Source of the DNA: Gammaproteobacteria bacterium
Lineage (GTDB): Bacteria; Pseudomonadota; Gammaproteobacteria; Natronospirales; REEB76
DNA length: 64,000 nt
Direction: 5' to 3'
Assembly: GCA_035279405.1 (NCBI GenBank)
Contig: DATEHU010000017.1
Coordinates: 186,001-250,000 of the forward strand
Under the pieces are notes generated by a model. It ran no database searches. It worked only from the letters and a program-made list of their open reading frames with translations, and was not told the DNA's origin. A program made the translations under genes and the position numbers. How positions within the stretch are numbered: position 1 is the first letter of the stretch; every line of letters starts with the position of its first letter. This document shows positions 4,108-62,288 of the stretch, piece by piece.

Positions 4108-4255
4108 CCTGAAATCCCCCCTTTCGCACTTCGCAATCCTGCTCCGTTCGAAAGTCCAGGGCAGCCATCCGTGGCTGCCCGTTCGGGGCTTCGCCCCTCA
4201 CCCCCCTTTTCAAAAGGGGGGAAGCGCGCTTTGCGCGCGGGGGGATTTGTCCCAA
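4108..4255. repeat. Dispersed modular hairpin repeat, copy R1
   Basis: Non-coding block of consecutive hairpins: CTTTCG/CGAAAG arms (4121-4126, 4149-4154) around a loop containing (minus strand) GGAGCAGGATTGCGAAG; GGGCAGCCA/TGGCTGCCC (4159-4180); GGGGC/GCCCC (about 4185-4197); a C5T4/A4G5 palindrome (4202-4220); GCGCGC/GCGCGC (4224-4238). An inverted relative lies at 44704-44920 and others at 44928-45055 and 58748-58810. No coding potential is convincing in the 304-nt gap that holds it. Confidence 0.85.
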
Positions 4256-13866: not shown

Positions 13867-14541
13867 ATGGCAAAATATCTGATTGCGCCCTCGATTTTGT
13901 CCGCGGACTTTGCGCGCCTGGGCGAAGAGGTGGACGCCGTGCTCAAGGCCGGCGCCGACCTGATCCATTTCGACGTGATGGACAACCACTATGTGCCGAA
14001 CCTGACCATCGGCCCCATGGTGTGCGCGGCGTTGCGCAAGCACAGCCCCAAGCTGCCGATTGACGTGCACCTGATGGTCAAGCCGGTGGACCGCATCATT
14101 CCGGATTTTGCCGAAGCCGGCGCGAGCTACATCACCTTCCATCCGGAAGCCAGCGAACACGTGGACCGCAGCCTGCAACTCATCCGCGATCACGGCTGCA
14201 AGGCGGGCCTGGTATTCAATCCCGCGACGCCGCTGGATTATCTGCATTACGTCATGGACAAGCTCGACATGGTGCTCGTAATGTCGGTGAATCCGGGTTT
14301 TGCCGGCCAGTCCTTCATTGCTTCCGCCCTGGACAAGCTGCGCGACGCGCGCCGGCTCATTGATCAGAGCGGCCGCGCGATCCGCCTCGAGATTGACGGT
14401 GGCGTGAAGGTGGACAACATCCGTGAAATTGCCACAGCCGGCGCCGACACCTTCGTGGCGGGTTCCGCCATATTCGGCACCAAGGACTACGCGGCCGTCA
14501 TCAAAAAAATGCGCGCTGAGCTGGCGCTCACCGGGAATTGA
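13867..14541 (+). CDS. rpe: Ribulose-phosphate 3-epimerase
   Basis: 224-residue TIM-barrel epimerase interconverting D-ribulose 5-phosphate and D-xylulose 5-phosphate. Signatures: [35 protein letters not shown] (metal ligands His and Asp), [18 protein letters not shown] (phosphate-binding), and [11 protein letters not shown]. Length and motifs are standard. Its TGA overlaps the ATG of gph (TGATG), so translation is likely coupled. Confidence 0.96.
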
Positions 14542-16892: not shown

Positions 16893-17660
16893 GGATGCCG
16901 CAGACGCCGTCATTGCGGCCCTTTGGCAAGCTCAGGACAGACCGGGCTTCGGCCGAGCCGGAATCCCGTTCGCGCGCAAACTGCGTCACGATTCCCCGTC
17001 ATTCCGGCGAAAGCCGGAATCCAGATCCAGATGACTGGGCGGCCGTTGGCCGCCAACCCATCAAGAGAGCGGGAGTCCGTCCCGCAGCCGGGTGACTTTC
17101 TTTGGACGTGCAAAGAAAGCCACCAAAGAAACACGCCCCGGGGATTCCGCGCCTGGCTGAAACCGAATGGTGGACCATTCGGTTTCAGCCGCGTCCCCTC
17201 GTTTCTCGCCCGGCTCGGGGCGGCGCAGACGGTACATCCTTGTACCGCTGCGCCGGTTCGTCTTCCTGACTTCACCCTGCCCTGTGGGCGGGCCCTTTCC
17301 TCGCCGGGCTGCGAGACTCGGCGCAATCCACGGGGACCTGAAGAGCAAGAGGCGTGGATGGGATGTCTTATTCTTGCACCCGCAGTGCTCGGCACGCTCC
17401 AGCGGGTAAGGAAAAACTGGAGCGCGGCATCGAGCTCATTTGGGTCTTCGATGCCCCTTGGAGACCGCCGCAGGCGGCGGGCTCCGGGGGTGTCCTTTCT
17501 TTTCGTCCCTTTTCTTTGGACAAGCAAAGAAAAGGGACCCGGCTGCGGGATGGGTGAGCCGCGAAGCGGCGAACGCTGTGCCGCTTCGGCACGGCCGGGT
17601 AGCAACCGCTATCTTGATCAAGGCTGCGGCGTAGCCGCACAGATTCTCTTGGAGCGAGAA
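16893..17660. repeat. Composite palindromic repeat block between trpE and trpG
   Basis: About 770 nt of interspersed repeats, without a credible gene despite long open frames. Parts: a 'tcattccggcgaaagccgga' type inverted repeat (about 17000-17026); a module from about 17069 to 17420 that recurs in opposite orientation at 20745-21085; a 36-bp near-perfect palindrome with arm GGCTGAAACCGAATGGT (17155-17190); a palindrome with arms GTCCCTTTTCTTTG / CAAAGAAAAGGGAC (17505-17538); and a tail containing 'aaggctgcggcgtagccgca' (17621-17640) that recurs in direct orientation near 21091. Mosaic of shared modules. Confidence 0.88.
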
Positions 17661-20460: not shown

Positions 20461-20744
20461 CGAGCTGTCATTCCGGCGTGATCCGGGCCTTCGCCGGGAG
20501 GAATCCAGTTCTTGAGCGGCCTTCGGCCGCAACCATCTTTCGAAGCGGGTTCCCGCACCCGCCGGCGGGGCACTTTCGTTTCGGCGAAAGTGCCCAAAGC
20601 CATTCCCCCGGAGCGCGGGTCGCGGAAGCCACGACTGCCCTGCGCGCTTCCTTCGCTGCGGAGTCCCGCCGACAGGCCATCCCTGGCCTGACGGCGGGAG
20701 CGCGAACATCCTGTTCGTGCCCCTTCGGGCTAACCTTGCTCAGT

Positions 20745-21130
20745 CCAGTGCTCGGCTCGCGCTACGGGTATTAAAGACAAGACGGTGGTATGAAGCGCTT
20801 CTTGCTCTTTACAACCCCGTGGATGACGCCGAGTCTCGCAGCTCGGCAAGGATCAGGCCCGCCTGCAGGGCGGGGTGAAGTCAGGATGACGAACCGGCGA
20901 GCGGGCCACGGATGGCCCGTCTGCGCCGCCCCGAGCCGGGCGAGAAACGAGGGGACGCGGCTGAAACCGAATGGTCCACCATTCGGTTTCAGCCCAGCGC
21001 GGAATCCCCGGGGCGTGTTTCTTTGGTGACTTTCTTTGCACGCACAAAGAAAGTCACCCGGCTGCGGGACGGAATCCCGCTATCTTGATAAAGGCTGCGG
21101 CGCAGCCGCACAAAAATTCTTTGGGAGCGT
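20745..21130. repeat. Inverted copy of the trpE-trpG repeat module
   Basis: The stretch 20745-21085 is the reverse complement (with scattered differences) of about 17069-17420. It includes the 36-bp palindrome (20959-20994) that is exactly the reverse complement of 17155-17190, and a palindrome with arms GGTGACTTTCTTTG / CAAAGAAAGTCACC (21025-21058). The final part (21082-21130) instead matches 17610-17653 in direct orientation. Preceding sequence 20510-20740 holds further hairpins such as GCACTTTCG/CGAAAGTGC. No gene is credible in the 697-nt gap 20461-21157. Confidence 0.88.
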
Positions 21131-26417: not shown

Positions 26418-26607
26418 GGGCGTCTCCCATTGGTGCCGTTACCGGCTTTCGCCCTTGAACCAAAGGTTCAGGTGGAGCCGACCGTGATGCTTTAGGCTTT
26501 CCGCTGCAAGGCGGACCTGCACACCGACATCACTGGGCCAGTTCCGGGGGTTTGATTTAGGCTCAAAGAGTAACCCAGCCCGTATCGCACACCACAGGAG
26601 ACGCCGA
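26418..26607 (-). ncRNA. ssrS: 6S RNA
   Basis: Located between zapA and the folate cyclo-ligase as in other gammaproteobacteria. The minus strand has a closing stem GGCGTCTCC (26605-26597) with GGGAGACGCC (26428-26419), a large central bubble flanked by GAGCC...CCCCGGAACTGGCCC, and the characteristic 3' hairpin ACCTGAACC/GGTTCAAGG, similar to the E. coli 6S 3' region. Size about 190 nt is right. It binds sigma-70 RNA polymerase by mimicking an open promoter. Exact ends need 5'/3' mapping. Confidence 0.9.
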
Positions 26608-44703: not shown

Positions 44704-44920
44704 CCATGAAAAATCCCCCTGCGCGCCTAGCGCGCTCCCCCCTTTGCAAAGGGGGGCGAGGGGCGAAGCCCCGAGCGGGCAGCCATGGGCACATCGTCAT
44801 TCGATGTGCGGGAGACCAGGGATGGTCTCCCTGGACCCGAACACGAGACAGGATGGCGGAGTGTTCAGGGCTGCCCTGGACTTTCAAACGGAGCAGGATT
44901 GCGAAGTGCGAAAGAAGGGG
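44704..44920. repeat. Modular hairpin repeat, copies R2a and R2b
   Basis: Reverse-complement relative of 4108-4255, with additional nested hairpins: CCCCCCTTT/AAAGGGGGG; GGGGC/GCCCC; GCACATCG/CGATGTGC; GGGAGACCA/TGGTCTCCC; a loop GAGACAGGATGGCGGA between arms CCCGAACAC and GTGTTCAGGG (44836-44870); and a loop GGAGCAGGATTGCGAAG between CTTTC and GAAAG (44881-44914). Non-coding gap between alaS and lysC (448 nt). Confidence 0.85.
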
Positions 44921-44927
44921 CATTTAG

Positions 44928-45055
44928 CAAAATCCTCCCTCGTGCGGGCTGCGCATTCCTGCTTCGCCCGCAAGTCCAGGGCTGCCGTCCTTGGCAGCCC
45001 GCTCACCGCAAAACGGCGAGCCCTCCTTTTTCAAAGGAGGGGACGCATTGGTTTG
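44928..45055. repeat. Modular hairpin repeat, copy R3
   Basis: Opposite orientation to the preceding copy: arms GCGGGC/GCCCGC (44944-44971) around TGCGCATTCCTGCTTC (reverse complement GAAGCAGGAATGCGCA), then GGGCTGCC/GGCAGCCC, then CCTCCTTT/AAAGGAGG. Together with R2 it forms a head-to-head pair upstream of lysC. No promoter or riboswitch is recognisable for lysC. Confidence 0.85.
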
Positions 45056-46718: not shown

Positions 46719-46928
46719 GCGTTCCGCCACGCGATTTTGACCGGTCCCGGTCAGGCCGGTATCATCTCGGCCGCGAACACGCGCTTGCTCGAAATCGGTC
46801 AAGCCCGGTTCGCGCTGAAGCGGGTTCGAGCCGGATGCGCGTGCAGTGCATGGGCGCGCGGCTCAAAAGCTTGGCCGCGGCCGTGGAGGTAGCGGCACCA
46901 CGGACGGTCCAGCGATAAAATTTTTGCT

Positions 46929-47065
46929 TACGGAGAGATGGCTGAGCTGGGCTTGGCCGGTGCATGAATCGAACTGCCGGTGGCAGTTCGATCCGGGCAA
47001 GCGCGAGGCACGATGCCGAGCCGGACAACGCACCAGGGATGGTTCACTGCGAGATTCTGTGTTAC
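46929..47065 (+). repeat. Repeat unit upstream of tRNA-Ser carrying a copy of the tRNA 5' end
   Basis: 'TACGGAGAGATGGCTGAG' at 46929 repeats the 5' end of tRNA-Ser (TACGGAGAGATGGCCGAG at 47063) with one change. The 134-nt unit holds a perfect hairpin with 11-bp arms ATCGAACTGCC/GGCAGTTCGAT around GGT (46968-46992), a small GGCA/TGCC hairpin, then 'gccggacaacgcaccaggga' resembling the tail of units at tRNA-Pro. No gene here. Confidence 0.85.
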
Positions 47066-47159
47066 GGAGAGATGGCCGAGCTGGTCGAAGGCGCGCCCCT
47101 GCTAAGGGCGTATACGCGCAAAACGCGTATCGTGGGTTCGAATCCCACTCTCTCCGCCA
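47066..47159 (+). tRNA. tRNA-Ser (GCU)
   Basis: Type II tRNA with long variable arm (ACGCGCAAAACGCGT region). Acceptor GGAGAGA/TCTCTCC, discriminator G, encoded CCA; anticodon stem CCCCT/AGGGG-like with loop CTGCTAA, anticodon GCT reading AGC/AGU; T-arm GTGGG-TTCGAAT-CCCAC. Flanked on both sides by partial copies of its ends. Confidence 0.96.
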
Positions 47160-47204: not shown

Positions 47205-47345
47205 GATGAACGTGGATTCGAACCCACGATGTAGATAGTTTGGTTCGACAAGTTTGCCTGGAGCAAACTTGGACCGCCGAAGGCGGGCCCGCGAAGCGGG
47301 AAGCCCCCCGGGACGGGGGCGAACAATCCCACTCTCTTCGCCAGA
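47205..47345 (+). repeat. Repeat unit downstream of tRNA-Ser with T-arm and 3'-end copies
   Basis: 47210-47228 (CGTGGATTCGAACCCACG) is an inverted version of the tRNA-Ser T-arm. AATCCCACTCTCTTCGCCAG at about 47326-47345 repeats the tRNA 3' end (AATCCCACTCTCTCCGCCAG, 47141-47160) with one change. Between them are hairpins AAGTTTGC/GCAAACTT, CCGCC/GGCGG, and CCCGC/GCGGG. Confidence 0.85.
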
Positions 47346-58622: not shown

Positions 58623-59000
58623 ACGGATTGGTCGGGGTGACAGGGCGCAGCCGGTGATTTAGACGGATGTCCGGTGGACATCCGTTCCGGCTGCGCGCCC
58701 GCACATGGGTGAGCCGGATGTAGGCGAAGCACAGCTTCGCGCCGGCGAACGGGCAGCCAGGGACGGCTGCCCTGGACTTCCGAGCGGAGCAGGATGCGCA
58801 GCTCGGAAGTGCGGGCCGGTAAGCGCATCAGGGATGACTCAGTGAGCGAGAAGCAGTGACGATTGGTCGGGGTGACAGGGCGCGGCGGGCGATTCAATTG
58901 AACAGCCGGTGGCGGTTCAATCCCGCCGTGCGCCACGCCATGGATGGCGTGGCCGGTAAGCGCACCAAGGAAGGTTCTGTGAACGGGAAGAGCACGGATT
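58623..59000. repeat. Tandem repeat units carrying copies of the tRNA-Pro 3' end
   Basis: The 19-mer GATTGGTCGGGGTGACAGG, which is the tRNA-Pro 3' end (59000 region, minus strand), recurs at about 58625 (last bases) and 58861. Between copies: hairpin ACGGATGTCC-GGT-GGACATCCGT (58663-58685, perfect), R4 (next entry) and tails; then hairpin ATTGAACAGCC-GGT-GGCGGTTCAAT (58897-58921, one mismatch) and GCCACGCCAT/ATGGCGTGGC. Each unit ends in 'gccggtaagcgcaycarggaw'-like sequence. Confidence 0.87.
58748..58810. repeat. Modular hairpin repeat, copy R4
   Basis: GGGCAGCC/GGCTGCCC (58751-58772) followed by CTGG and a perfect hairpin with arms ACTTCCGAGC/GCTCGGAAGT (58776-58810) around GGAGCAGGATGCGCA. 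Same module as at 4.1 and 44.8 kb, here inserted in the tRNA-Pro repeat unit. Confidence 0.85.
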
Positions 59001-59076
59001 GGTCGGGGTGACAGGATTTGAACCTGCGGCCCCTTGGTCCCGAACCAAGTGCTCTACCAGGCTGAGCTACACCCCG
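59000..59076 (-). tRNA. tRNA-Pro (CGG)
   Basis: Minus strand CGGGGTGTAGCTCAGCCTGG...: acceptor CGGGGTG/CACCCCG, discriminator A, encoded CCA (59000-59002); anticodon stem CTTGG/CCAAG with loop TTCGGGA, anticodon CGG reading CCG; T-arm CAGG-TTCAAAT-CCTG. Downstream (lower coordinates) are tandem copies of its 3' end. Confidence 0.95.

Positions 59077-61088: not shown

Positions 61089-62288
<1,200 letters not shown>

Follow-up and report, generated by a model that had tools for sequence, protein, structure and literature searches.

The window, that is, the whole stretch of 64,000 nucleotides that was analysed, carries an intact tRNA-Ser(GCT) gene on the forward strand (47066–47159; ARAGORN and Rfam), and upstream of it there are, in this order, a copy of the tRNA 5' end, a hairpin module of about 107 bp, here called E, and the intact tRNA. 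The copy lies 134 bp upstream of the gene and represents a leftover tRNA-Ser 5' end (T1, 46929–46950, +, 22 nt, one mismatch against 47063–47084), while the first 18–19 nt of the intact gene are its counterpart, T2. The preliminary description of this DNA had reported that the tRNA-Ser start is repeated upstream as TACGGAGAGATGGCTGAG at 46929, which is correct: GGAGAGATGGCTGAGCTGG (46932–46950) differs from the gene start by one mismatch in 19. The unit adjoins csrA (PF02599), csrA followed by tRNA-Ser being an ordinary gene order that is also found in relatives.

The module itself (46948–47054, +) scores 97.8 bits with a covariance model and has a covarying structure. Its first stem (46951–47002, +) consists of outer arms (46951–46960 and 46993–47002), a 5'-side bulge and an inner hairpin at 46968–46992; the latter is the perfect hairpin ATCGAACTGCC-GGT-GGCAGTTCGAT already seen between the two copies, which is now recognised as part of this longer arm. 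The second hairpin, GGCACGATGCC (47007–47017, +), has a loop without GGA in the tRNA-Ser copy, and the third, ACC[AGGGAT]GGT (47032–47043, +), has a loop of the CsrA/RsmE-binding form (consensus from PMC4005645) and is the only ANGGAX-type loop of this unit. Compared with shuffled sequences, the 98-nt body folds much better, as DNA (z −4.5, 0 of 200 shuffles as good) and as RNA (z −2.8).

Two more units flank this arrangement, both absent from the preliminary description. Before the tRNA-Ser unit there is a decayed older unit of the E family (46821–46919, +; 20.7 bits, E = 0.025), which retains GCACCACGGACGGT at 46895, and downstream of the tRNA there is a unit of a second repeat family (47213–47343, +), composed of an inverted T-arm copy (47213–47228), hairpins and a copy of the tRNA 3' end (47325–47343), to which the E model gives only a weak match (47227–47328, 17.5 bits, E = 0.095). 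A putative tRNA-Ser promoter, supported by consensus match only (TTGACC, 17 bp, TATCAT), lies at 46737–46765 (+), and the same motif stands directly 5' of tRNA-Ser in genomes of the same genus without the unit (L014, L016). As far as can be judged from the sequence, the inserted units now appear to separate the original promoter from the gene.

A second site is the tRNA-Pro(CGG) gene on the reverse strand (59000–59076; ARAGORN and Rfam). From the outside inwards, there is an outermost antisense copy of the tRNA-Pro 3' end (T1, 58626–58644, +), a first unit enlarged by additional hairpins (58642–58849, +), a second antisense 3'-end copy (58861–58879, +) and a second unit (58877–58986, +). The likeness between the tails at tRNA-Ser and tRNA-Pro that had been pointed out earlier is genuine, as the model that gives 97.8 bits to the tRNA-Ser unit also gives 110.7 bits to the second tRNA-Pro unit and 50.2 bits to the first (the match spanning 58642–58739, with another of 23.5 bits). 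This model, R1, was built from eight units, including the tRNA-Ser unit and the second tRNA-Pro unit, and not the first. The claim of one module shared by two unrelated tRNA genes, on opposite sides of them, holds under this single structural model, with the tRNA-Ser unit at the 5' end in sense and both tRNA-Pro units at the 3' end in antisense orientation; its scope was too narrow, since the hosts include 23 tRNA types, 5S rRNA and several protein genes. The tRNA-Pro hairpin is imperfect, with one mismatch in its arms, and the suggestion that hairpin arms could echo a tRNA arm was not borne out: no systematic echo was found, and the arms vary freely with compensating changes.

BLAST with the tRNA-Ser unit against the same genome returned relatives beside tRNA-Lys (two genes), tRNA-Ser(GGA) and tRNA-Arg(CCG), and upstream of ftsA. 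With model R1, about 42 copies of E were found in the source genome (E < 0.01), 7–37 in each of eight other genomes of the genus and 13 in a genome of the same family; in the rest of the order there were single matches at most (E ≤ 1e-6). The genomes of the genus are all drafts or assemblies from metagenomes. No E match was found in IMG/VR or in phage and plasmid collections, and the only known RNA families above threshold were tRNA and 6S. Covariation backs the proposed structure: both partners change in 25 of the 27 pairs, 92.6% of cells are paired (68% in shuffles) and the covariation score is 0.47 (0.12 in shuffles, and at most 0.07 with the partners slid). These values are subject to the caveat that the model itself guided the alignment and that the family members are related. 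Only about 2% of the paired cells are G-U, so a DNA hairpin fits at least as well as an RNA.

The left and right flanks of 156 units from about ten genomes (G000–G008 and G011) were compared. A clear direct copy, with T1 on the left and T2 on the right, was present in 93 units. Mismatched controls gave 11 of 150, and some of these possibly matched because they were the same gene from a different species. About half of the units lack either a clear T copy or a tRNA host. Together with the copies found in the source genome, these counts place the similarity far beyond chance, and thus beyond the short GC-rich likeness that would have refuted the preliminary description. At 22 of the 30 best loci of the source genome a tRNA lay within the fetched flank (approx. 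1.5 kb). T2 lies within a tRNA in 75 units; it mostly starts no more than a few bases from the gene terminus and ends at few positions, namely at nucleotide 17–18, the D-loop GG, in sense units (39 units), at nucleotide 29–30 in a few (Phe, Trp, Met), and 14–16 nt from the tRNA 3' end in antisense units (26 units, the tRNA-Pro units among them). E occupies a fixed position a short way inside one end of its host gene (tRNA, 5S or protein-coding), typically directly after GG; outside E lies T1, the cut-off end of the gene, and inside it T2, the end that is intact. Apart from tRNA genes, the hosts are 5S rRNA (L291), the starts or ends of murG, sucD, sufC, sufB, sdhE, xthA, rpe and ftsQ, and a gene with CDVLAVRL encoded at its 3' end; protein-gene names were given by eye from the translated ends, except rpe (Pfam). 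Stacked units occur, and the identical nucleotide holds different E copies in sister species.

The clearest evidence from a filled and an empty site is one locus, rpe. The gene is uninterrupted in the window (13867–14541, +; PF00834) and is filled in the sister genome G002 by a unit that follows a GG whose counterpart lies near 13921, so that the comparison of strains for presence and absence that had been proposed gives a positive case. In G002, the left flank and the first 55 bp of the gene are native (93–98% identical to the empty site); they are followed by E, a new start codon and the beginning of rpe in other codons. The right copy is 61% identical to native rpe over 100 bp and 96% identical thereafter, with the protein largely kept, and the divergent tract extends approx. 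30 bp past the junction. Since the left side matches the empty site and the right side has diverged, T1 is native, and we take T2 to come from elsewhere. That T2 is a foreign or recoded gene start is inferred from this divergence; no donor of the replacement end was found in 274 genomes, the best match being 81% over 74 nt. An origin without mobility, by tandem duplication in place or by slippage of replication at the hairpins, could account for the arrays in which whole units are repeated with identical tails (L138, L156 and L159), but not for one body dispersed over about 42 loci nor for a site that one sister genome has empty and another has filled. These two facts refute it as the main cause, and it is scarcely credible as an explanation.

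At protein genes, T1 and T2 are not the same version of the gene end. In 15 units, the differences between T1 and T2 fall on third codon positions in 67 of 94 cases, and 65 codon changes are synonymous versus 15 non-synonymous; as the codon counts were typed by hand from alignments and some units are orthologous, P-values are indicative only. The peptides of T1 and T2 are MAKYLIAPS and MPQPYFIAPS for rpe, and MNEISRL (the type of the genus) and MNEYGRM for sdhE, and because of these variants T1 is not merely a decaying duplicate. At the CDVLAVRL gene in three sister species, T1 is 92–98%, E 67–83% and the right side 27–72% identical, and every T2 encodes the same peptide with other codons. At loci shared between sister genomes, T1 is 82–98% and E 50–97% identical, and the right side often 27–75%.

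A miniature transposon with target-site duplication, whose T2 would be held by selection while T1 decays, would leave direct repeats at its flanks, and the units do have these: the pairs are identical in 42 of the 75 tRNA units, and T1 is decayed in some units (L143, L229). However, the length of the repeat is not fixed and follows the gene end, from 16 to approx. 70 bp, the right copy in rpe is not native, and T1 in protein genes keeps natural variants instead of decaying. For protein genes this explanation is largely refuted, and as a general account we regard it as quite improbable.

Integrases that use tRNA genes leave a native remnant on one side, restore the gene end on the other and act at D-loop and T-loop positions, and integrative elements in protein genes with diverged but synonymous ends are also known. 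Phage-style integration, in which a recombinase acting in trans would insert a small circle carrying a gene-end attachment site, with T1 and T2 as attL and attR, would therefore explain the native T1, the restoring T2 and the positions of insertion in tRNA genes, and has precedent for the synonymous ends in protein genes. Against it, a reciprocal crossover would keep the native bases of rpe, whereas in this single clean pair these are replaced for approx. 30 bp past the junction, and one body would have to serve at least 23 tRNAs and several protein genes. E resembles phages and islands in having a leftover gene end on one side and a restored one on the other, but unlike them it has no genes, is only about 110 bp long, has many targets per genome and, in rpe, replaces the gene on one side only. 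This explanation is therefore unlikely, although it retains some chance of being right.

The account that we think somewhat probable, though far from certain, is that E is a mobile non-coding module of approx. 80–110 bp, similar in design to the tRNA-linked repeats (TLRs) of E. coli, and that it goes in directly behind a GG and carries a replacement gene end along. To hypothesize, the outer end of E, which would be either single-stranded and folded or aided by an enzyme acting in trans, would be joined to the target GG, and the travelling replacement end would then pair with the gene by homology and be resolved 0–35 bp further in; with such a resolution the gene would survive. Although clean pairs are few, a one-sided, homing-like event fits better than a target-duplicating transposon or a reciprocal integrase, given the pattern of an outer junction fixed after GG, an inner junction seemingly resolved by homology and a gene end seemingly carried in. 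That copies are short and identical at tRNA genes and long and diverged at protein genes would, by inference, also be favoured by survival alone, because repeats that are both long and identical are lost by recombination. The analysis found no circle, no product of excision and no enzyme for mobility, the only enzymes sought being Y1 transposases; these do not track copy number, and PF01797 is absent from G003, G004 and G005, which hold 28, 37 and 8 copies, respectively, and are incomplete genomes. If the reading with a replacement end is true, a minimal element can enter essential genes harmlessly, with a working gene end included.

At least one hairpin with an NNGGAN hexaloop is present in 138 of the 156 units, mostly ANGGAX closed by C-G, and loops of the ANGGAX type number 197, on 111 different stems, compared with 7.6 in shuffles. 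ANGGAX is the high-affinity consensus of CsrA/RsmE (PMC4005645), and RrB, one of the tRNA-linked repeats of E. coli, has been shown in vitro to bind both CsrA and Hfq (PMC8144298). By analogy to RrB, this suggests that E RNA may bind CsrA through its ANGGAX hairpins, for which there are no binding data. Like CsrB/RsmZ-type RNAs, E bears ANGGAX loops directly on a stem, but unlike these it has at most about two such loops per unit, at many loci and in both orientations. Together with the conserved structure, these loops and the behaviour of RrB could also mean that the units are host regulatory RNAs, i.e., CsrA-binding sRNAs released by cleavage of tRNA or mRNA leaders, which selection maintains and which have little mobility of their own. 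However, GGA is equally frequent in antisense (29 of 32) and in sense units (39 of 46), which makes the loops a property of the module rather than a means of host-gene regulation; turnover between sister species is fast and G-U pairs are scarce, and we give this possibility only a slight chance.

TLRs of E. coli include the 178-bp repeats of tyrT and rrA/rrB/rrF (Egan and Landy 1978 and Rudd 1999, as cited in PMC8144298). Our searches of the literature on tRNA fragments, D-loop integration and intergenic repeats gave nothing relevant, and the link to TLRs came through the second repeat family, which is widespread in Gammaproteobacteria and related to rrA/rrB/rrF. A query of this family from L015 matched 3,914 of 5,426 E. 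coli genomes, with 85% identity over 72 nt to rrB-type repeats. Two matches that were inspected (E. coli and Klebsiella records) lie just after 5S rRNA and end with a copy of its 3' end, which is the position of rrA/rrB/rrF. At tRNA 3' ends the family has the layout GGTTCGA-hairpins-GAGTAATCC and then a copy of the tRNA 3' end, and before all of this stands an inverted T-arm copy, specific to the tRNA concerned; its loci are 47213–47343 in the window, which has the TLR layout, and L008, L032, L034, L037, L043 and L046. It shares one array with E at tRNA-Arg(CCG) (L127). The family also occurs within the D-loop of tRNA-Ser, after GA (L015 1343–1370, L028 1343–1510, L032 4999–5260), and in L028 and L032 the native tRNA sequence goes on for approx. 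10–12 nt past the far side of the insert, before the tail.

E shares with TLRs a place beside tRNA and 5S genes, a gene-end copy of 16–19 bp, tandem arrays and GGA hairpins. The TLR trait of an 18–19 bp distal copy of the 3' end of the upstream gene is not met by the tRNA-Ser unit, where the 5' end is copied, and the tRNA-Pro units have a 3'-end copy at the far end as in TLRs, but in antisense; unlike TLRs, E is also found in protein genes, where a replacement gene end accompanies it. Judged by sequence criteria, E is built like a TLR and yet is not a member of that group, because its consensus has no match in the 5,426 E. coli genomes and the 5' instead of the 3' end is copied at tRNA-Ser. 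We raise only tentatively, and hold to be rather doubtful, the wider idea of a distinct mode of DNA mobility, with a gene-less hairpin, an outer end joined to GG within an essential gene and an inner end resolved by homology with a recoded gene end that comes along, of which the enterobacterial TLRs would be old traces. TLRs of E. coli have been known since 1978 without an accepted function or origin. This lineage seems to hold a counterpart in kind that is active or was so recently, is present in many copies, uses either end of a gene and also targets protein genes, and with at least one clean filled/empty pair the origin of such repeats becomes directly testable.

E resembles REP/REPIN elements with RAYT in being small, dispersed, gene-less hairpin DNA, but differs in being flanked by copies of host gene ends, and Y1 transposases are missing in some of the copy-richest genomes, which are incomplete. 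A HEARO/IscB guide RNA was considered since the target copy precedes a structured body, and was rejected because the restored tRNA target would equal the would-be guide, with self-cutting as the result; RF02033 (HEARO) gave no match to the unit, and control genomes were likewise silent. The bridge RNA of IS110, integron attC sites, casposons and group I introns would not explain a replaced, recoded gene end, and were set aside.

Identical E copies with a tRNA-Leu end stand at two contig ends of G000 (L122 at the start of C26, L123 at the end of C48), so the assembly probably breaks at the E repeat. The window also contains a 6S RNA gene (26420–26603, −; RF00013, 97.9 bits). Long-stem ANGGAX hairpins occur at 4159–4180, 17230–17247, 20673–20919, 44810–45000 and 61111–61126, in stretches rich in other repeats, and the model does not call them as E units, except for a weak match at 4144–4204.
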